A DNA stretch of 64,000 bases from assembly GCF_001683915.1 (NCBI RefSeq), contig NZ_LXTT01000020.1, positions 1 through 64,000 of the forward strand. The letters are read 5' to 3'. Position numbers and translations under genes: made by a program. Source of the DNA: Allomuricauda sp. CP2A (GTDB taxonomy: Bacteria > Bacteroidota > Bacteroidia > Flavobacteriales > Flavobacteriaceae). The notes under the pieces were generated by a model, which worked only from the letters and a program-made list of their open reading frames with translations, was not told the origin of the DNA and searched no databases. Shown here piece by piece: positions 34,130 through 52,214 of this stretch. Within the stretch, counting starts at the first letter, position 1; each line of letters opens with the position of its first letter.

Positions 34130-34233
34130 TCAATTATAGTTTAATGGCCCCAAAAGGGTCTTCACCCGAAGGTGCAGTTAGATTATCGAAGGATAAGCCT
34201 TAATTCATAATCGCACTTTCAAATTAATAGAAG

Positions 34234-44793: not shown

Positions 44794-44950
44794 CGTCCCC
44801 TTGGCGCTGGCCTGCCCATTCACAGGCCTTCCGAAGGCAGGAATTTTACTAATTATCTTGAATGCTTTGTCATCTTGAGCGCAGTCGAAAGGTAGGCAAA
44901 GCATCTCGACTGCCCGTCCGAACGGCACGGGTGGAAGCTCGATGTGACAT

Positions 44951-45202
44951 TTTTGGATTGTCCCCTTGAGGCCTTCCTGCCGCAGGCAGGGGACTTTAGG
45001 GGTGTTGTTGGTCTGACACGCCCGCCTGCCGTAGGTAGGAATTCCACGAATTCTCTCGAATGTCTTTTGTTGTCAGGTCGAGTGTTGCAAACGGAGTTTG
45101 GAACGTATCGAGACCTTTTGTTTGGCATGGAAAAAATAGATCAGCTACGCTGAATCCTCGATTTCTCGATACAGCACGCTGCCGCGCGCCACTCGAAATG
45201 AC
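44951..45202. repeat. Dispersed repeat copy A with cloverleaf-like inverted arms
   Basis: The first 120 bases match copy B (from 49913) with small differences. The last 131 bases (45072-45202) are the structured core shared with copies B and C. Outer arms GTCAGGTCGAGTG (45072-45084) and CACTCGAAATGAC (45190-45202) pair except for two central bases. Inside are CAAAC/GTTTG (45088-45100) and GTATCGAGA/TCTCGATAC (45105-45113 with 45164-45172). This is the only copy besides C with both outer arms. Confidence 0.85.
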
Positions 45203-45219
45203 TTGCGGTTTGTTTGTGC

Positions 45220-45306
45220 GTCACCTTGAACCTACCTGGCCGGTAGGCAGGTTTATTTCAGGGTCTCATTGCAGGGATGGGATGCCGAAATAGGTTCGGC
45301 ATGATG
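45220..45306. repeat. Dispersed repeat D, copy 1
   Basis: About 87 bases that align with 55215-55302. Both copies hold the CCTGGCCGGTAGGCAGGTT palindrome region, TTTCAGGGTCT and a final ATGCCGAA...TTCGGCAT hairpin (ATGCCGAA-ATAGG-TTCGGCAT here). Both begin with a GTCA and end in a CATGA segment. Confidence 0.8.
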
Positions 45307-45406
45307 TTGGTTGCCTTTTGTCATTTCGAGCAAAGCGAAGAATCTTTTTTCATGATGGGTTCATGGTCAGACCAGCCTGCATTTTTTTGACACTGTTTCC
45401 ACTAAT

Positions 45407-45505
45407 TTTCACAAATTCTAATGGACTTGAAGTCTAATGTCTTACGTCTTTTGTCTGTATTGCTCACGATATCCCCATAATCAGCCCCACAAGAGTGCTT
45501 TCCGC
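45407..45505. repeat. Dispersed repeat F, copy 1
   Basis: This block resembles 50246-50340, the region just after the BCCT transporter stop codon. Shared segments are TCACAAATTC, TCTTACG, TCACGATA and CCCCACAAGAG. Read on the minus strand both contain a KALLWG...YREQ reading, interrupted by a stop in this copy. It may be a decayed duplicate of a gene end. Confidence 0.55.
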
Positions 45506-45636
45506 CATCCTTTGTAAGATATTTTGACAAAATGGTGTATATTAGGTTGGTTTTTAGCAGTTTTATCCCCCCTGGTTCTTTGTCTAAAAGCTCCTTTTTT
45601 AAAGAATTTTTTAGTAAATGAAAATCAAGCATTAAT

Positions 45637-46692
45637 ATGGAGTTATATAATCAACTCAAAGGTCTTGCTGACAAAATTGAACAATTAAAGGATAAGATTG
45701 ATACAGAGGAGTCAACAAAACATGCATTTACTCTTCCGTTCATCAATATTTTAGGATATGATACCTTTAACCCAACAGAGGTCGTTCCAGAGTTTACTGC
45801 TGATTTGGGATTAAAAAAAGGAGAGAAAGTTGATTATGCAATATTTCAAGAAGGGAACCCAATTTTAATCATTGAATGCAAGCATTGGAAACAAAACTTA
45901 GATGTTTTTAACTCACAACTTTTCAGATATTTTCATGTAACCAAAACACGCTTTGCTCTTTTGACAAATGGCATCGTTTACAGATTTTATACTGATTTGG
46001 AAGAAACCAACAAAATGGACGAAAAGCCATTTTTGGAATTTGACATAACAAAACTGAAAGAGAACACAGTCAAGGAGATTGAAAAATTTCACAAATCAAA
46101 ATTTGACATTTCTAAAATTGTTGATAATGCGAGTAATTTAAAATATACTCGCGAAGTGAAGTCTTTAATTGACCAAGAACTTAGTGAGCCTTCTCAAGAC
46201 TTTGTCAAATTATTTGCGAATCGAGCATATAATGGACGTCTTACTGCTAAGGTTATGAATGAATTTACCGAAATAGTTGGAAAGGCTTTCAACCAAACTA
46301 TCAGTGAAAAAGTAAATGATAGGCTTAATTCTGCTCTAAGTAGTGAGCAAGAAAAGCAACTTGCTGAAAATCAAATTGAGGAAAAGCCAGAAAGTAAGGT
46401 TGATACAACGGAGGAAGAAATGGAAGGCTATCAAATTGTACTAGCAATTCTCCGCAGAAAAATCGAGAAAGAGAGAATTGTACACAGAGATACACAATCT
46501 TATTTTGGAATACTATTGGATGACAACAACAGAAAACCAATCTGTAGGCTTCATTTAAATGGAGGTACGAAGTACATCAGTCTATTTGATGAATCAAAGA
46601 ACGAAACCAAACAAAAAATTAAGTCTGTTGATGACATTTATAGATTTGAAAAGCAATTATTGGCAACAATTGAGAATTATGACAATGAATAA
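45637..46692 (+). CDS. Stand-alone HsdR-N-type nuclease-domain protein
   Basis: A 351-residue protein resembling the N-terminal part of type I restriction R subunits (HSDR_N_2-like). The N-terminal domain has the PD-(D/E)xK arrangement: Glu25 in STKHAF context, Asp66 (KVDYAIF) and Glu80-Cys-Lys82 (ILIIECKHW), with QLFRYFHVTKTRFALLTNG after it. The rest is helical (about 120-260), then a beta-rich C-terminal domain about 270-345 (RLHLNGGTKYISLF). No ATPase, methylase or specificity subunit lies nearby. Its base composition is more AT-rich than its neighbours and it is flanked by repeats and decayed genes, which suggests acquisition. A role in defence is inference. Confidence 0.78.
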   Translation: MELYNQLKGLADKIEQLKDKIDTEESTKHAFTLPFINILGYDTFNPTEVVPEFTADLGLKKGEKVDYAIFQEGNPILIIECKHWKQNLDVFNSQLFRYFHVTKTRFALLTNGIVYRFYTDLEETNKMDEKPFLEFDITKLKENTVKEIEKFHKSKFDISKIVDNASNLKYTREVKSLIDQELSEPSQDFVKLFANRAYNGRLTAKVMNEFTEIVGKAFNQTISEKVNDRLNSALSSEQEKQLAENQIEEKPESKVDTTEEEMEGYQIVLAILRRKIEKERIVHRDTQSYFGILLDDNNRKPICRLHLNGGTKYISLFDESKNETKQKIKSVDDIYRFEKQLLATIENYDNE

Positions 46693-46717
46693 AGTGCCAA
46701 GATTATAAATTATATCA

Positions 46718-46942
46718 TCAACCCCTCAACCCCACCACAATCCCCCTCATCGCTTCTGCCACATCTTGCACCTCCCTTCGGGAGAAGGTGTCTTCATCTA
46801 AAAAGAACAGCATAAAAATACCTAACTCCAAAATTTGGGCTAATTTTTCAGGAGCGCCGTAGCTGTCAACAATCCATTCGCTAAAAGTTTCATTTTTTTC
46901 CATATTGGGAGCAAGAAAAGGCTTTTTCGGCAGCTGGTACAT
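46718..46942 (-). CDS. Possible small protein or gene fragment
   Basis: A frame of about 74 codons from MYQLPKKPFLAPNMEKNETF; the frame stays open upstream through low-complexity DNA that is unlikely to be coding. The segment FSEWIVDSYGAPEKLAQILE followed by FMLFFLDEDTFSRREVQDVA looks like real protein. No family recognised and no promoter seen. It may be the remains of a longer gene, since the neighbouring XRE regulator is clearly broken. Confidence 0.35.
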   Translation of the reverse strand: MYQLPKKPFLAPNMEKNETFSEWIVDSYGAPEKLAQILELGIFMLFFLDEDTFSRREVQDVAEAMRGIVVGLRG

Positions 46943-46954
46943 GCCATAAATGGC

Positions 46955-47020
46955 AAGAGGGGTGAAGGGTTTTGGGTGAAGGGTAAAAGGTGTTGGGTGC
47001 AAGGTTGAAGGGTTAAAGGA
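46955..47020. repeat. Low-complexity GGGTNAAGG-type tract
   Basis: A run of variants of GGGTGAAGGGTAAAAGG and GGTGTTGGGTGCAAGG covers about 65 bases. A similar tract in the opposite orientation lies at 58990-59060 between fecI and fecR. It abuts the broken end of the XRE regulator remnant. Confidence 0.6.
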
Positions 47021-47118
47021 TAAGAACCAACGCCACTATCCATACCCTTTACCGCATCAGCCAAGCCCTGGACGTCCCCTTATCTGAAATTTGTATGTTG
47101 GAAACTAACCAACATTAA
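47017..47118 (+). pseudogene. 3' remnant of an XRE-family HTH regulator gene
   Basis: A short in-frame stretch reads TNATIHTLYRISQALDVPLS then EICMLETNQH and a stop. This is the typical end of a Cro/C1-type helix-turn-helix regulator (the T-L-x-x-I-x-x-A-L-x-x-P-L-x-x-L pattern). The DNA-binding half that should precede it is missing and is replaced by the low-complexity tract with a stop codon in frame. It is a truncated relic, and it may once have controlled the adjacent nuclease-like gene. Confidence 0.65.
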
Positions 47119-47127
47119 AAAAAGCAA

Positions 47128-47691
47128 TTAAAGTTGGGAATGTAGGAAATTGGCAGTAGCTGTTAACCCTTGTTTTCTAAGTATATCAAGCACCTGATAC
47201 TCATCCAAATCTGGATTTCTACGGTTGAGGACCATTTCTTTAAATGCTTTAACGGCTTCTTCGGGGTTTAGGTCAATAATATCGGTCAGGAAATCATCAG
47301 CAGTTTTCACCGACAGCCCAAATGAGGAAAGGTAGTCTTTTGGAAAATCCTTTATGTTGTTCGTCACAATAACATTGGCATTGGTTTTAATCGCCGCCGC
47401 CAAAACATGGCAGTCCTTTGGGTCGGGCAAATTTAATCCAGAAATCAGCCCTGAGTAATTGTTGACCAAGGCATCGGGAAAGGCCAAGTTGGCCTTATCC
47501 AATCTTTTTTTTAATTCCTCTGGAGCTATTCCCTTGCGTTCCATAACACTTGCCCATTCATCAAAAATGTGTTCACTCCACTTTGGGGTATAAAGGTCGT
47601 AATAGGCAAACCAAAAAAGCAAATCACGAATTTCAATAGGGTAGATGACATTCGTGTCCAAGACACAGATGAAACGTACACTATGAATCAT
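47128..47691 (-). CDS. PIN-domain ribonuclease, probable toxin of a TA pair
   Basis: A 187-residue protein with the acidic cluster of the PIN (PilT N-terminal) fold: Asp12 (VLDTNVIYP), Glu45 (DEWASVM), Asp93 (DPKDCHVLAAAI) and the TNNIKDFP motif with Asp115. PIN toxins cleave RNA with bound metal. The C-terminal 55 residues form a helical extension beyond the usual VapC length. Its start overlaps the end of the HTH gene by 11 bases, the classical antitoxin-first arrangement. Toxicity is inferred from family and layout. Confidence 0.85.
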   Translation of the reverse strand: MIHSVRFICVLDTNVIYPIEIRDLLFWFAYYDLYTPKWSEHIFDEWASVMERKGIAPEELKKRLDKANLAFPDALVNNYSGLISGLNLPDPKDCHVLAAAIKTNANVIVTNNIKDFPKDYLSSFGLSVKTADDFLTDIIDLNPEEAVKAFKEMVLNRRNPDLDEYQVLDILRKQGLTATANFLHSQL

Positions 47692-48136
47692 ATAATCCAG
47701 TTTCTTCGTCAGATCGCATAATATCGATAATGTGCTTCTTCTGGAAAGCTTTCATTTTTCTTTTGTATTTCATCACATCCTCAAACTTAACCCTCCGATG
47801 CTTACCTATTTTAGTGAACTCTATTTCACCACTCTCTAACAATTTGACAAAATGGGGTCTTGAACAGCCCAATATTTCAGCAGCTTTTTGGGTTGTTACC
47901 TCAGTCGCAACAGGAACCAGGGAAAATGGTTTTCCTTTACTCATTGCCTCCAGAATATCACCTAAAAGCTTTAGGGCACTCAAAGGGATTCTTATACGTT
48001 CTTGGGTCTCCTCAATTTCAATTTCTGGATTGTCAGATTTTAATTCCTTGATTATCGTTGCCAAAGCATCATAGGATTCGAGTGCAATTTTTTGCTCGTC
48101 CTTTGAAGGTTTATTGACATTTTTAAACGTTTCCAT
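47681..48136 (-). CDS. Excisionase-type HTH protein, probable antitoxin
   Basis: A 151-residue protein with a helical N-terminal part (1-75) and a MerR/excisionase-like helix-turn-helix at about 80-125 (EVTTQKAAEILGCSRPHFVK, then GKHRRVKFEDVMKYKRKM). It is followed by a short tail that probably binds the partner. It precedes and overlaps the PIN gene, so it likely neutralises the nuclease and represses the pair's promoter. Three 9-base direct repeats just upstream could be its operator. Confidence 0.82.
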   Translation of the reverse strand: METFKNVNKPSKDEQKIALESYDALATIIKELKSDNPEIEIEETQERIRIPLSALKLLGDILEAMSKGKPFSLVPVATEVTTQKAAEILGCSRPHFVKLLESGEIEFTKIGKHRRVKFEDVMKYKRKMKAFQKKHIIDIMRSDEETGLYDS

Positions 48137-48160
48137 GGCGTATGTGAGTTTTCATTATAC

Positions 48161-48187
48161 GAAATAAACGAAACAAATGAAATAAAC
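48161..48187. promoter_or_regulatory. Three 9-base direct repeats upstream of the TA pair (candidate operator)
   Basis: GAAATAAAC, GAAACAAAT and GAAATAAAC follow each other without spacing, 25 bases before the antitoxin start codon. Such iterated sites are typical autoregulatory operators of antitoxins. No exact -7 consensus is seen, so the promoter position is unknown. Confidence 0.45.
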
Positions 48188-48312
48188 GCACTTAAACTAT
48201 GTTAAAATTGATTAAAGTGTGTTCAAGTGGTTATGGATAAAATGTTTAATCAGGTTTAACAGGTTTTCACACAGTTGAATTGTCTTGTCTATTAAGAAGC
48301 GAAAACAGATGG

Positions 48313-49818
48313 TTACTCTTCTACAGTGAACTCCCGTATCGCCTGGTTGGGCTCCATAATGGTATGGCCCTGCCAAAACTCGGGGTCATACGTGGGCATA
48401 TAGGTGGCGCGGGCGGTCTTGTCCTCGGTAAAGTTGGTGAACTGGTCTTCGCTCACCAGATCTTGGTCAAACACCACCAGTTCCCATTTTTGGGTGGGAC
48501 TCATCCGAAAGTCGATGGTCAGCAAGAGTTCGTTCTGCTTACGGCGGCCCTTTACGTGCTTGTTCTTTTCCACCACTTTTAGGGGGCGGTCCACGGCAAA
48601 GTAGCGGCCAAAGGTAAAGTCCATAAAGCGAAGGTCGTACTTGCCATTGGGCAGTTGGGCAAAGCGCATGGTGCCCTTGTAGAGCACTTCGCGGTAGGTA
48701 ATGCCCAGCAGCCTAAAGTTGCGCAGGCGGTCCGTGTTCTGCACATCCAACCGCATTAGGGCAAAATCGGCTATATTTATATAGAGGCGGCCCTTAAAAT
48801 CGGCACTGCTGCGCTTGGGCTCAAAATCGATGACGTACACCCCGGCATCGGCAATTTCGGCATAGCCCACTAGGCTAAAGTCGTACCTTCGGGTCTTGGA
48901 AATGAGGTCCAGTTTGCTGTCCTCGTTGTAGTACAGTTCGGTGAGCAGTTCGGTAAAAGCATGGCGCTGACTGTCCACCAGCCCGGTGTTTTTCTTTTTA
49001 TCGAGGTTTTTTTTCACCTCTTCCGCCTGTTCGGCCTGTTCTTCTTCCATATCGCTGAGGATGGAATCCACCTGCACCTTTTGGCTAAAGATGCCCGATT
49101 TGATCTTCAGGTAAGAATCGGGCTTAATGTTTTCGGTAAAAATGGTCTGCATGCGCTCACCGAGTTCCTCAAAAGAGCCCACTTGGTTCTTGTCGTACAG
49201 ATCGGCGGCCTTGATGATGTCCAGTTTGTACTTGCCATTGTTCTTGTAGAGGTCGCCCAGACTTTCGGTATAGTGGTGGCCGTTTTTGGGGATGGATTGC
49301 GCAAGGCTGTCCATGAGTTCTTTGTTGAGCTCGGCAATGGAGGATTTCTTAAAACCGAAGTCCACCTTGTTGATGGTGGCAAACTCGGACTGCCGCAAAA
49401 AGAAGCGTTGTTTTATGGGTTCCTTGTTGATGTTCTGCGGAAGCCGCTCCACCATTTTCTCGATGATCTCGTCCACCTCCAGTTCCTCGTTGAAGACATA
49501 CACCCCACTGAGTGCAATGGCCTTGGGTTGGAGGAGTACCAAACTGTCTTGCAATTGGGTTAGGGCGAAGCCCTTTTTCTCGTACCCCATGGAGGAGATG
49601 TAAATGGAATCGGGGGCTATTCCTCCTTCCAACATAAAGCTGAAACGACCTTCATCGTTGGTGATTACACCCTTGTGCTCGCCATATTGGATGGTGGCAT
49701 AGGGAATGCCTTTTTGGGTCTTGGCGTCCACCAGTTTGGAGCTGATGGTCTGGGCAGCCATGGGAAGGGCCATGAGCAAAAATAGAAAGGGGAAGATCTT
49801 GGTGTTGGGCAAGGTCAT
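48313..49818 (-). CDS. Secreted protein with carboxypeptidase-like regulatory domain
   Basis: About 501 residues from MTLPNTKIFPFLFLL, with a signal peptide cut near residue 22 (PMAAQ). The frame stays open 107 codons upstream, but that part is translation of dispersed repeat B and is not protein. After the signal comes a CarboxypepD_reg-like beta-sandwich at about 24-105 (SSKLVDAKTQKGIPYATIQY, FMLEGG, SMGYEKK). A long alpha/beta region and a C-terminal YAEIADAGVYVIDFEPKR domain follow. This architecture is frequent among exported flavobacterial proteins of unknown function. It ends in an acidic EFTVEE. Confidence 0.82.
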   Translation of the reverse strand: MTLPNTKIFPFLFLLMALPMAAQTISSKLVDAKTQKGIPYATIQYGEHKGVITNDEGRFSFMLEGGIAPDSIYISSMGYEKKGFALTQLQDSLVLLQPKAIALSGVYVFNEELEVDEIIEKMVERLPQNINKEPIKQRFFLRQSEFATINKVDFGFKKSSIAELNKELMDSLAQSIPKNGHHYTESLGDLYKNNGKYKLDIIKAADLYDKNQVGSFEELGERMQTIFTENIKPDSYLKIKSGIFSQKVQVDSILSDMEEEQAEQAEEVKKNLDKKKNTGLVDSQRHAFTELLTELYYNEDSKLDLISKTRRYDFSLVGYAEIADAGVYVIDFEPKRSSADFKGRLYINIADFALMRLDVQNTDRLRNFRLLGITYREVLYKGTMRFAQLPNGKYDLRFMDFTFGRYFAVDRPLKVVEKNKHVKGRRKQNELLLTIDFRMSPTQKWELVVFDQDLVSEDQFTNFTEDKTARATYMPTYDPEFWQGHTIMEPNQAIREFTVEE

Positions 49819-50337
49819 CTGTTCGTTTTTTGATGTGTTTGTATAAAGACTGTGCAAACTGCAAAAGGTTGCACACAAGGTAAGACGAATTGGGTTGGAT
49901 TTTGTAACAGAATTTTTGGAATTGTCCCCTTGAGGCTTGCCTACCGTAGGCAGGGGGACTTTAGGGGTGTTATTGGTCTGACACTGATTACACGAATTCT
50001 CTCGAATGCCTTTTGTTGTCAGGTGGAGTGTTGCAAACGGAGTTTGGAATGTATCGAGACCTGCTTTGGCGGTATGCAAAAATCGATTGGCTACGCTGAA
50101 TCTTCGATTTCTCGATACCTGCCTCCGGCAGGCAGGCAAAATTTCTTTGGTTTCGACTTTAGTTTATCCTGAGCATAGTCGAAGGGCTCAACCACCAAAA
50201 AACCACTCCTTGTCGATTTTTTTGGTTTAATACAAATATCACGAATGTTCACAAATTCCAATAGACTAACATCTTACGCCCTATGTCCTGTGTCTTATTG
50301 TTCACGATAGATCAAAAAGTATCCCCACAAGAGCGCC
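49819..50337. repeat. Repeat-rich intergenic region (repeat B and repeat F copy 2)
   Basis: No gene is evident in these 519 bases. They contain the second copy of the dispersed block (49913-50118), GC-rich palindromes (CCTGCCTCCGGCAGGCAGG near 50118), a REP-like CCTGAGCATAGTCGAAGG near 50168 and repeat F copy 2 (50246-50340) beside the BCCT stop. The promoter of the minus-strand secreted-protein gene must lie at its left edge; none matched the consensus. Confidence 0.8.
49913..50118. repeat. Dispersed repeat copy B (right outer arm missing)
   Basis: This aligns with copy A from TTTTTGG through TCTCGATAC. The left outer arm is GTCAGGTGGAGTG (50018-50030); CAAAC/GTTTG and GTATCGAGA/TCTCGATAC (50051-50059 with 50110-50118) are kept. 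The right outer arm is absent: a CCTGCC...GGCAGG palindrome replaces it, as if a different repeat had inserted or recombined there. Confidence 0.8.
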
Positions 50338-51867
50338 TTACCCCCTTCTTTTAAAACTACTAAGAAACACCACTGCCATAAATACCATAAAAAAGGCAAA
50401 GGGCAGGGAGGTGATGATGAGTAGTTTTTGAACGGCGGTGAGCACATCAATATCCGGTTTGGCATTGCCAAGGAGGATAAGTGCCAAAGTGGACAACAGA
50501 ACAATGACGGACCAGATCAATCGATGTTTCCGTTGCGGATTGGGATTCCCTTTGTCCGTAAACATGCTCAGCACAAATACGGCAGAGTCCACCGAAGTGA
50601 CCAAAAAACTCACTAAAAGCAAAATGGTTATGCTGTTGAGCAAGCCCGAAAACGGATATTCCCCAAAAAAGACAAAAATGGACGAGAATACACTGCCAAA
50701 TTCATTTTGGTAGCTGCCCCAGCCTTCAATAATACCAAAGGCCGAAGTGCCAAAGACCGAAAACCAAAAGAAGGTTCCCAACGAAGGCAAGATCAATACA
50801 CCCAACAACATTTGCCGCAGCGTTCGACCCCGAGAAATTCGGGCGATGAAGATACCGGTAAAGGGTGCCCAGGCCAGCCAAAAGGCCCAATAGTAAAAGG
50901 TCCAATCCGTGAGGAACTCCAGCCCGGGGTTGTAGCGTCCCACTGCGATGCTCATCGGAACAAAATCCTTGAGGTAGTGCAAAGAGGCCTTTCCGAAGGA
51001 AAGCAGGATATCCCCCATATTGCTGTTGACGAACACAAAGGCCAACAGCAGCAAGGTCACCAAAATATTGAACTTGGAAATCCGTTTGATGCCCTTGTCC
51101 ACCCCCAACCACACGGAGACAAACGCAATGGCGGAGATCAGAATCGCTAGAAGCAAGGTGGCAGCCACCCCAAACTCAGATTGAAAAACATGGTTGAGCC
51201 CTCCGGTAATCTGTGCGGTGCCCAACCCCACGGCGGCGATCAACCCAAAAACGGTGGTGATGATGGCCAGAATATCCAATGCATTGGCGCGTTTGGTGCC
51301 CTTGAACTTTTGTGGAATGGAACTGCTCACCAGCACTTTTTGGTTTTTGGTAAAGAGCGCATGGCCAATGATCAGGGCAAACAATCCGTAAAAGGCCCAA
51401 GCGGTAAAGCCCCATTGGTAAAAGGTAAACTCCAGTGCCAAAATTTCCGGGGCACTATTGGTGGCAATGGGCGGGTTTTGCTGCATAAAAACGGGTTCCT
51501 GTACGGCCCGAAGCAAAATACCGGCCCCCATGCCCGTGCTGTAGAGCATACTGGCCCACGCCCAGAGTGAATGTTCCGGTTTTTCGTTGGGCTTGCCCAA
51601 TTTGAGCTTGCCCCAGGGCGATATGGCAATGCCCAAGAGCAGTAGCACACAGCCAAGGCCCAGATACAGATAAAAATACCCAAAGTGTGACCGCACCCAG
51701 AGTGATAGCACCTCAATGGATTGGTAGCTCCACTCCGTAAAAAGGAACACCGCAATGGAGAACAGCAACAGCAGCCCCGTGGAGACCGCCAAAAGTGGGT
51801 TATGTTTTAAAAAGTTGTAAATCGTTTTTTGTTTTCCCGAAGATAAAAGGAAATCTCCACTTGTCAT
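50338..51867 (-). CDS. BCCT-family transporter (betaine/carnitine/choline type)
   Basis: A 509-residue protein with about twelve transmembrane segments, in the sodium- or proton-coupled compatible-solute family. The Gly-rich helix reads SMLYSTGMGAGILLRAVQEP, where well-studied members have GMGIG or GMGSG followed by Phe-Trp-Gly. Helix 8 carries the conserved WTFYYWAFWLAWAPFTGIFI segment with Trp residues of the substrate box, and the end holds SVDSAVFVLSMFTDKG. The substrate is probably a quaternary ammonium or related osmolyte, but the altered Gly-helix leaves it open. The neighbouring regions are dispersed repeats. Confidence 0.93.
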   Translation of the reverse strand: MTSGDFLLSSGKQKTIYNFLKHNPLLAVSTGLLLLFSIAVFLFTEWSYQSIEVLSLWVRSHFGYFYLYLGLGCVLLLLGIAISPWGKLKLGKPNEKPEHSLWAWASMLYSTGMGAGILLRAVQEPVFMQQNPPIATNSAPEILALEFTFYQWGFTAWAFYGLFALIIGHALFTKNQKVLVSSSIPQKFKGTKRANALDILAIITTVFGLIAAVGLGTAQITGGLNHVFQSEFGVAATLLLAILISAIAFVSVWLGVDKGIKRISKFNILVTLLLLAFVFVNSNMGDILLSFGKASLHYLKDFVPMSIAVGRYNPGLEFLTDWTFYYWAFWLAWAPFTGIFIARISRGRTLRQMLLGVLILPSLGTFFWFSVFGTSAFGIIEGWGSYQNEFGSVFSSIFVFFGEYPFSGLLNSITILLLVSFLVTSVDSAVFVLSMFTDKGNPNPQRKHRLIWSVIVLLSTLALILLGNAKPDIDVLTAVQKLLIITSLPFAFFMVFMAVVFLSSFKRRG

Positions 51868-52214
51868 TCTGGGTACCGGTCAGTATCTCTTTCGGGGCTT
51901 GACAGAAATTGCACTAATTTCCACGAACACCCTATTTGTCATTCTAAGTGCCCGCCTGCCGGACGGGCAGGAAACGAAGAAGCACTTGACACGCCTGCCA
52001 GCCGCAGGTAGGAATGGCACAAATTACTCGAAGGTGCCCGATGTTGTCAGGTCGAGTGTTGCAAACGAAGTTTGGAATGTATCGAGACCTACTTTGGCGG
52101 TATGCAAAAAATCGATTGGCTACGTTGAATCTTCGATTTCTCGATACAGCACGCTACCGCGTGCCATTCGAAATGACGATTTTTTGATCTTTACCTTTTT
52201 CCTTTCGCCCATTG
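51868..52214. repeat. Repeat-rich intergenic region containing repeat C
   Basis: These 347 bases between the BCCT gene and a DUF1648 gene contain a CCGCCTGCCGGACGGGCAGG palindrome and copy C of the dispersed element. No gene is evident. Confidence 0.8.
51988..52177. repeat. Dispersed repeat copy C with cloverleaf-like inverted arms
   Basis: The core matches copy A. Outer arms GTCAGGTCGAGTG (52046-52058) and CATTCGAAATGAC (52165-52177) still pair, with a G-T wobble where A has G-C. CAAAC/GTTTG is conserved with a different loop. GTATCGAGA (52079-52087) pairs with TCTCGATAC (52139-52147), and CACGC/GCGTG forms a further small hairpin. Confidence 0.85.

Follow-up and report, generated by a model that had tools for sequence, protein, structure and literature searches.

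GTCA-tagged hairpin doublets dispersed in Allomuricauda, and the stand-alone GIY-YIG nuclease genes that lie between the same kinds of repeat

We analyzed a stretch of 64,000 nucleotides from Allomuricauda sp. CP2A (RefSeq assembly GCF_001683915.1, contig NZ_LXTT01000020.1, positions 1 to 64,000 of the forward strand; hereafter the window), which is contig C45 of a genome of 4.27 Mb in 173 contigs (G000, hereafter the own genome). The window holds three intergenic copies (A, B and C) of an element that resembles the repetitive extragenic palindromic sequences (REPs) and their doublets (REPINs) of other bacteria: it is probably a non-autonomous piece of mobile DNA, in which two GTCA-tagged imperfect palindromes stand inverted around a spacer. 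This element belongs with the genes of small GIY-YIG nucleases, a link to proteins that a preliminary description of the DNA, made from the letters alone, had not drawn. The three copies lie where that description had placed them. Copy A (45072-45202) and copy C (52046-52177) are both complete and share 87% identity. Copy B (50018-50118) is truncated on the right, as described; its last ~30 bases are gone, and a CCTGCC..GGCAGG palindrome stands in their place. Copy A is flanked by a DDAH-like gene and an HSDR_N gene, and a BCCT transporter gene has copy B on one side and copy C on the other, with a DUF1648 gene after copy C (names as in Pfam). The units of the three copies and the two repeats adjoining copy A are as follows.

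45072..45115, plus strand: left hairpin unit of copy A, GTCA-GG-TCGAGTG-TTGCAAACGGAGTTTGGAAC-GTATCGAGA-CC (sequence and arm-pairing analysis)
45162..45202, minus strand: right hairpin unit of copy A, inverted, GTCA-TT-TCGAGTG-GCGCGCGGCAGCGTGCT-GTATCGAGA-AA (sequence and arm-pairing analysis)
50018..50061, plus strand: left hairpin unit of copy B, with a single arm change, TGGAG for TCGAG (sequence)
50110..50137, no strand given: remnant of the right unit of copy B, TCTCGATAC, then the CCTGCC..GGCAGG palindrome that replaces the last hairpin and arm (sequence)
52046..52089, plus strand: left hairpin unit of copy C (sequence and arm-pairing analysis)
52137..52177, minus strand: right hairpin unit of copy C, with a single change, TCGAATG for TCGAGTG (sequence)
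44869..44946, no strand given: adjoining GTCA-tagged inverted doublet of a different family, GTCATCTTGAGCGCAGTCGAAAGG .. GTGAC (by eye; start matched)
45218..45305, no strand given: adjoining GTCA-tagged doublet of the GTCACCCTGAAC..GTTCAGGGTC-like type (by eye; start matched)

Repeats of the GTCACCCTGAAC..GTTCAGGGTC type are those that bracket the GIY-YIG gene of contig C41 in the own genome. The CCTGCC..GGCAGG-like palindrome is a separate one, found both at the end of copy B (window 50119-50137) and in the loop of a repeat on contig C18 (the upstream repeat of locus L033). There are nine copies of the element in the own genome, three of them within the window; two are full length, six consist of positions 1-101 only and one is cut by a contig end. 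Three of the copies (L005, L006 and L003, G000:C168:64-6075) lie in ~3 kb, as in a small array, and two of these are 362 bases apart with common flanks. With copy C as the query, a match at E <= 0.001 was obtained in 11 of 59 genomes, own genome included.

Each half of the element is also found alone in relatives, and we therefore took as the unit the motif GTCA-NN-TCGAGTG-insert-GTATCGAGA-NN, two of which stand face to face in the element. The unit measures 41-44 bases (GTCA-NN-TCGA-GTG-hairpin-GTA-TCGA-GA-NN), and two units make a doublet. A pattern for one unit yielded 364 copies, spread over 46 of the 70 genus genomes (own genome included) and divided equally between the contig strands (182 each); the same pattern read backwards yielded 0 copies across the 70 genomes.

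The two NN letters that follow GTCA pair exactly with those that follow GTATCGAGA in 93 of 98 distinct units (shuffled mean 26, maximum 42), in combinations that include GT-AC, CT-AG, GG-CC, AT-AT, TT-AA and others. The terminal stem of the insert scores at least 6 in 75% of 92 distinct inserts from the loci examined, compared with 3.3% of shuffled inserts. For covariation we set near-duplicates aside from the 44 units with a 20-base insert and aligned the other 34. Here 96% of the cells pair, and the 476 cells hold 110 two-sided changes vs 4 one-sided changes, which suggests that the pairing takes place as DNA rather than as RNA. The covariation score of this alignment is 0.588, whereas it is 0.203 when shuffled and at most 0.175 when slid. 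Two of the five measures did not rise above the shuffles: pairs changed on both sides numbered 10, a value reached by 110 of 500 shuffles, and further pair types numbered 18, reached by 487 of 500. Because TCGAGTG and GTATCGAGA were fixed by the search pattern, their pairing carries no test.

All 26 doublets found, many of which are orthologous copies, are head-to-head with their tags outward, and the left and right arm letters differ in 25 of them. Within units the NN letters pair in 51 of 52 cases, against 3 of 52 between units; for the 14 doublets without a gene, whose spacers measure 9-56 bases (5-52 without the NN bases), the corresponding counts are 27 and 3 of 28. These data bear on the conserved fold that had been proposed from the three copies. 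The complementary arms are present, and the right-hand hairpin that had been reported for copy C is found in copy A too; compensatory changes are many, and each half retains its own hairpin. The specific fold with long nested outer arms did not survive: the outer pair GTCAGGTCGAGTG/CACTCGAAATGAC has two mismatches (GG vs AA), and its positions vary among the doublets without outer pairing, the pattern that the preliminary description had itself named as speaking against such a helix. A single long cruciform with nested outer arms is rejected by covariation. The suggestion that the element is dispersed, mobile DNA gained support from the unit copies in 46 of the 70 genomes, and so did a conserved fold, with two-sided stem changes predominating among the aligned units. 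Overall, the earlier interpretation is partly supported.

Stand-alone GIY-YIG genes are often bracketed by repeats of this general form. In the own genome there are 13 GIY-YIG matches, of which 3 are UvrC or exonuclease-type proteins with no such flanking repeats by eye, and 10 are stand-alone genes. Judged by eye, 6 of the 10 (L031-L035 and L041) are flanked by GTCA-tagged palindromes on either side, with clear inversion at L032-L035. Across the genus we scored each gene by local alignment of its upstream flank with the reverse complement of its downstream flank. The 78 genes scored derive from 82 loci, with L032 added by hand and six loci dropped for having no match to the five-sequence profile (L037, L040, L042, L043, L053 and L078); outside the own genome the set holds best-scoring matches only, and the listed match G021:C7 was passed over. 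A flank score of at least 17 was reached by 39 of the 78 genes vs 2 of 344 mechanical open reading frames (ORFs) in 20 control stretches; in the other controls it was reached by 2 of 85 ORFs with intergenic flanks and by 63 of 1152 swapped pairs. At 13, 15 and 20, thresholds picked like the first after the scores were known, the counts were 56, 47 and 26 of the 78 genes vs 30, 11 and 1 of the 344 ORFs. PF01541 scored above its cut-off in all three GIY-YIG proteins scanned, and the protein of contig C18 matches this family as well as PDB 1zg2 (E 7e-10) and 1ywl (E 1e-9), two UPF0213/stand-alone GIY-YIG proteins that are entered as hypothetical proteins with no repeat partner given.

Some of these genes show unusual surroundings. 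L036 (G000:C88:10017-13229) and L092 each hold a gene of another GIY-YIG subfamily next to a tRNA-like gene, the first part of which (GTGGTGGAATTGGTAGAC...) recurs on either side, as if an insertion had duplicated part of the tRNA gene; the repeat was recognized by eye at L036 and by flank match at L092. At L086 (G018:C1:509460-511800), three GIY-YIG genes stand in tandem with a period of ~363 bases and terminator-like repeats between them.

The repeats are specific to the kind of nuclease that they bracket. Among the 47 genes with a flank score of at least 15, repeat similarity tracks protein similarity (Mantel rho 0.36, 0 of 2000 permutations). Mean repeat similarity is 0.80 for proteins from different genomes that share at least 60% identity (93 pairs) and 0.27 for less similar proteins within one genome (49 pairs). 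When restricted to non-orthologous sites, 35 pairs average 0.64 vs 0.28 for 986 other pairs, with some of the 35 as low as 0.24. The repeat family follows the nuclease subfamily, not the genome.

The units of the window are tied to one such subfamily, that of L094, which is present in 20 of 71 genus genomes (E <= 1.1e-37). A search that allowed one changed letter per arm, with 12 of the 20 loci also read directly, placed window-type units on each side of the gene at 15 of 20 loci, on one side at 3 and on neither side within reach at 2. The gene is usually preceded by GTCACTTCGAGTG-hairpin-GTATCGAGAAG and followed by the inverse of GTCAGTTCGAGTG-hairpin-GTATCGAGAAC, as a rule with a CT-type unit in front and a GT-type unit behind; these are both halves of the window element with different arm letters. 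Spacer length divides the inverted unit pairs into two classes: 14 have short spacers and no gene, and 12 have spacers of 274-318 bases, with a GIY-YIG motif in 10 of the latter. Genomes with an L094-type gene carry a higher median number of units (6, or 4 without the cassette's own ends, vs 1; one-sided p 0.002, uncorrected for phylogeny). In the own genome, the gene nearest to this subfamily is on C18, at 54% identity, and it is bracketed by GTCAGGTCGAGCGC..TCGAGACC, with the arm letters of the window's left unit. Since the closer, L094-type subfamily was not found in the own genome, this gene, bracketed by GTCAGGTCGAG..TCGAGACC units, is the likeliest candidate and is predicted to be the enzyme most probably active there.

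Presence and absence of the repeats and genes differ between species. At the B and C sites of the window, G027 has the full element at both, and in G031, G088, G062 and G087 the element was not seen in the ~430 and ~550 bases compared, which hold other repeats or other DNA. At the C18 site the gene is intact in the own genome, G027 and G087 have the repeat plus a gene remnant, G062 has almost nothing left, and in G090 it is absent; the site was set aside as a source of insertion boundaries, since the relatives show decay and loss instead. In L339, L338 and L340 (G031, G088 and G030), the gene at the orthologous site is reversed relative to its flanks, as if inverted between the repeats. Ten of the 20 L094-type genes have osmC within 300 bases, so that cassette is old and mostly inherited. 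As a clean empty site this locus failed also, the cassette-less genomes being too diverged there or carrying other DNA. In G088 (L256), the osmC site is occupied by another ORF where sister genomes have the nuclease cassette, and its product resembles a four-helix-bundle (S23-type) protein. Elsewhere in the window (47128-48136), a PIN-domain gene overlaps an HTH_17 gene in an arrangement like that of a toxin-antitoxin pair.

Beyond the genus, an alignment of a different GIY-YIG subfamily (A2) served as the query in a scan of GTDB genomes; we took 80 of 469 loci, of which 79 were testable. By record title, the matches listed comprise 49 Bacteroidota loci and 31 others (Cloacimonadota, Planctomycetota, Patescibacteria, Proteobacteria, Chloroflexi and more). 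Among these listed matches, a tag of the GTCATTCC type occurs in the adjoining 150 bases upstream at 56 of 79 loci, downstream at 53 and on both sides at 47 (32 of 48 Bacteroidota loci and 15 of 31 outside). In distant controls 700-850 bases off, the tag occurs in 2 of 148 windows; these are largely coding, which makes this control weaker than the ORF control of the genus. Plasmid records with a relative number 34, and flanking inverted repeats score at least 17 in 9 of the 12 examined, including those of A. lipoferum 4B, S. meliloti and N. aromaticivorans. NZ_CP119140.1 (L372), filed as a plasmid, is 2.17 Mb long and thus probably a chromosome. The A. lipoferum cassette separates sufB from sufC. 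Alignments of 10 further Azospirillum records cover these two genes as two pieces that do not include the cassette, and it is absent from the four other Azospirillum records inspected. The S. meliloti site gave no clean insertion boundary.

Taken as a whole, these observations are probably best explained by REPIN-like doublets whose enzyme is a stand-alone GIY-YIG nuclease. The candidate enzyme would be the endonuclease of ~96-106 residues whose gene, in related genomes, is enclosed by these two kinds of unit. Units may become exposed as single-stranded hairpins or cruciforms; the nuclease would then recognize the tag plus hairpin and cut at the GTCA edge, and host repair would copy the freed or nicked doublet into a new site. 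Our data establish the unit and its covariation, the doublets, the bracketed genes, the match of subfamily to repeat, the missing Y1 transposase match and the differences in presence between species; recognition, cutting and movement are inferred. The nearest behavioural analogue is the REPIN with its REP-associated tyrosine transposase (RAYT), where a repeat-bracketed gene likewise coexists with many gene-less doublets, though the enzyme is of another class.

Several observations weigh against this explanation. Of the 78 genes, half show no clear inverted pair at the threshold score. By eye, 4 of the 10 stand-alone genes of the own genome lack tagged repeats in the right arrangement: the tagged repeats of L036 are direct, not inverted, the palindromes of L039 are untagged, and at L038 and L043 no flanking repeats are visible. 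Such repeats are also missing at 3 of the 12 plasmid loci (Rhizobium K1/93, Sinorhizobium C101 and Photobacterium GJ3), and 2 of the 12 long-spacer pairs have no GIY-YIG motif. Many of the bracketed genes compared are orthologous and are therefore not independent events. The own genome has nine element copies and no L094-type gene, and G067, G017, G027 and G001 carry 21-28 units without one. The C18 site shows decay and loss in relatives, not fresh gain, and no target-site duplication was seen by eye, the empty sites being too diverged for base precision. Finally, the gene-less spacers are not derived from the gene, as an 11-mer is shared with the cassette interior in 1 of 14, which also leaves the idea that gene-less doublets are deletion products of the nuclease cassette unsupported.

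The main alternative to a GIY-YIG nuclease that moves the repeats is a free-standing homing endonuclease that settles in pre-existing doublets, its target, while the repeats spread by other means. GIY-YIG domains are found in homing endonucleases, the PF01541 domain is present here, the genes are neatly placed between two inverted units, and target recognition would equally yield subfamily-specific repeats. Homing leaves the spread of the doublets unexplained, and the gene-less spacers are unlike the surroundings of the gene by the same 11-mer comparison; we regard it as unlikely. It is very improbable that nuclease genes and repeats are associated passively, both accumulating in permissive intergenic space. 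Several repeat families do crowd the same intergenic stretches (partly by eye), but swapped pairs and same-genome comparisons give gene-specific matching on both sides, and the spacers fall into two size classes. Just as improbable is a transcribed RNA element such as a terminator, stabilizer or small RNA. The stems are conserved, and on either strand copies A and C fold better as RNA than shuffled sequences (z -2.5 to -3.9), but copy B folds no better (z -0.4 and -1.5) and one-sided changes amount to just 4 cells. A known RNA family was rejected, with no Rfam match on the copies at gathering scores; the sole match in an Rfam scan of the window is an S4-Flavobacteria ribosomal protein leader (RF03141) elsewhere, at 34181-34212. 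An origin as ordinary REPINs, mobilized by a RAYT (a Y1 tyrosine transposase) and with the nucleases as passengers, fits the doublet form, the tag plus hairpin and the intergenic placement reported for REPs in the available text of PMC3733652, but is likewise very improbable, since the tag is GTCA and not GTAG, PF01797 (Y1_Tnp) has 0 matches in the own genome, which rules this origin out there, and a match is absent in 57 and present in 13 of 70 genus genomes and absent in 39 of the 46 that bear units, so that the idea is close to refuted for the genus, although the Pfam model could miss a diverged Y1 enzyme.

Coming back to REPIN-like doublets served by a GIY-YIG nuclease, their likeness to REPINs and RAYTs extends to dispersed intergenic inverted REP doublets, a repeat-bracketed gene and matched repeat and protein types, with a GIY-YIG nuclease in place of the HUH/Y1 transposase. 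Like miniature inverted-repeat transposable elements, they are short, geneless and intergenic with inverted ends; of a target-site duplication none was seen by eye, at empty sites too diverged for base precision. The closest repeats are the CGTC-tagged REPs that Di Nocera et al. described in 2013, according to the available text apparently without a dedicated transposase (PMC3733652). As characterized there, both have a (C/T)GTC tag beside a palindrome, head-to-head doublets, frequent heterodimers and Bacteroidetes hosts. The tag with its preceding letter is T-GTCA in the left units of both A and C, C-GTCA in the right unit of C and A-GTCA in that of A, so CGTC or TGTC is found at three of these four. 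An extra inner hairpin, a GA bulge and the lack of a CCA tail set the window units apart from the CGTC REPs as presented in that text, and instead of an AT-starting stem of 8-9 bp the left units of the window start with GG/CC and the right units with TT/AA; with stem and tail so different, the window units stand outside its four families and have the tag and dimer form in common with them. The available text names A. lipoferum, S. meliloti and N. aromaticivorans as CGTC REP hosts, and records of these three species, whose REPs were reported there without a dedicated transposase, carry GIY-YIG genes between inverted repeats. Our literature search, judged mainly on titles and the starts of abstracts and covering neither subscription papers nor preprints, found among the papers listed none joining GIY-YIG nucleases with REPs; PMC9465073 has both terms, in the parts available in a gene table and a reference title only.

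We lean towards the view that there is a second, non-HUH REP system in bacteria, in which stand-alone GIY-YIG nucleases would be the dedicated, family-specific enzymes of GTCA/CGTC-tagged repeats across many phyla and the heterodimers would be the left and right ends of a nuclease cassette. For the excess of heterodimers among CGTC REPs, the available text of PMC3733652 gives no obvious explanation. REPs are widespread in bacteria, and one superfamily was called apparently transposase-less in 2013, again as far as that text goes. With an enzyme family whose genes such repeats bracket, the transposase question can be put to the test on a hairpin of ~45 bases and a protein of ~100 residues. A function for small GIY-YIG proteins, which form a large family, and an explanation for the heterodimer form of the doublets would be suggested as well.

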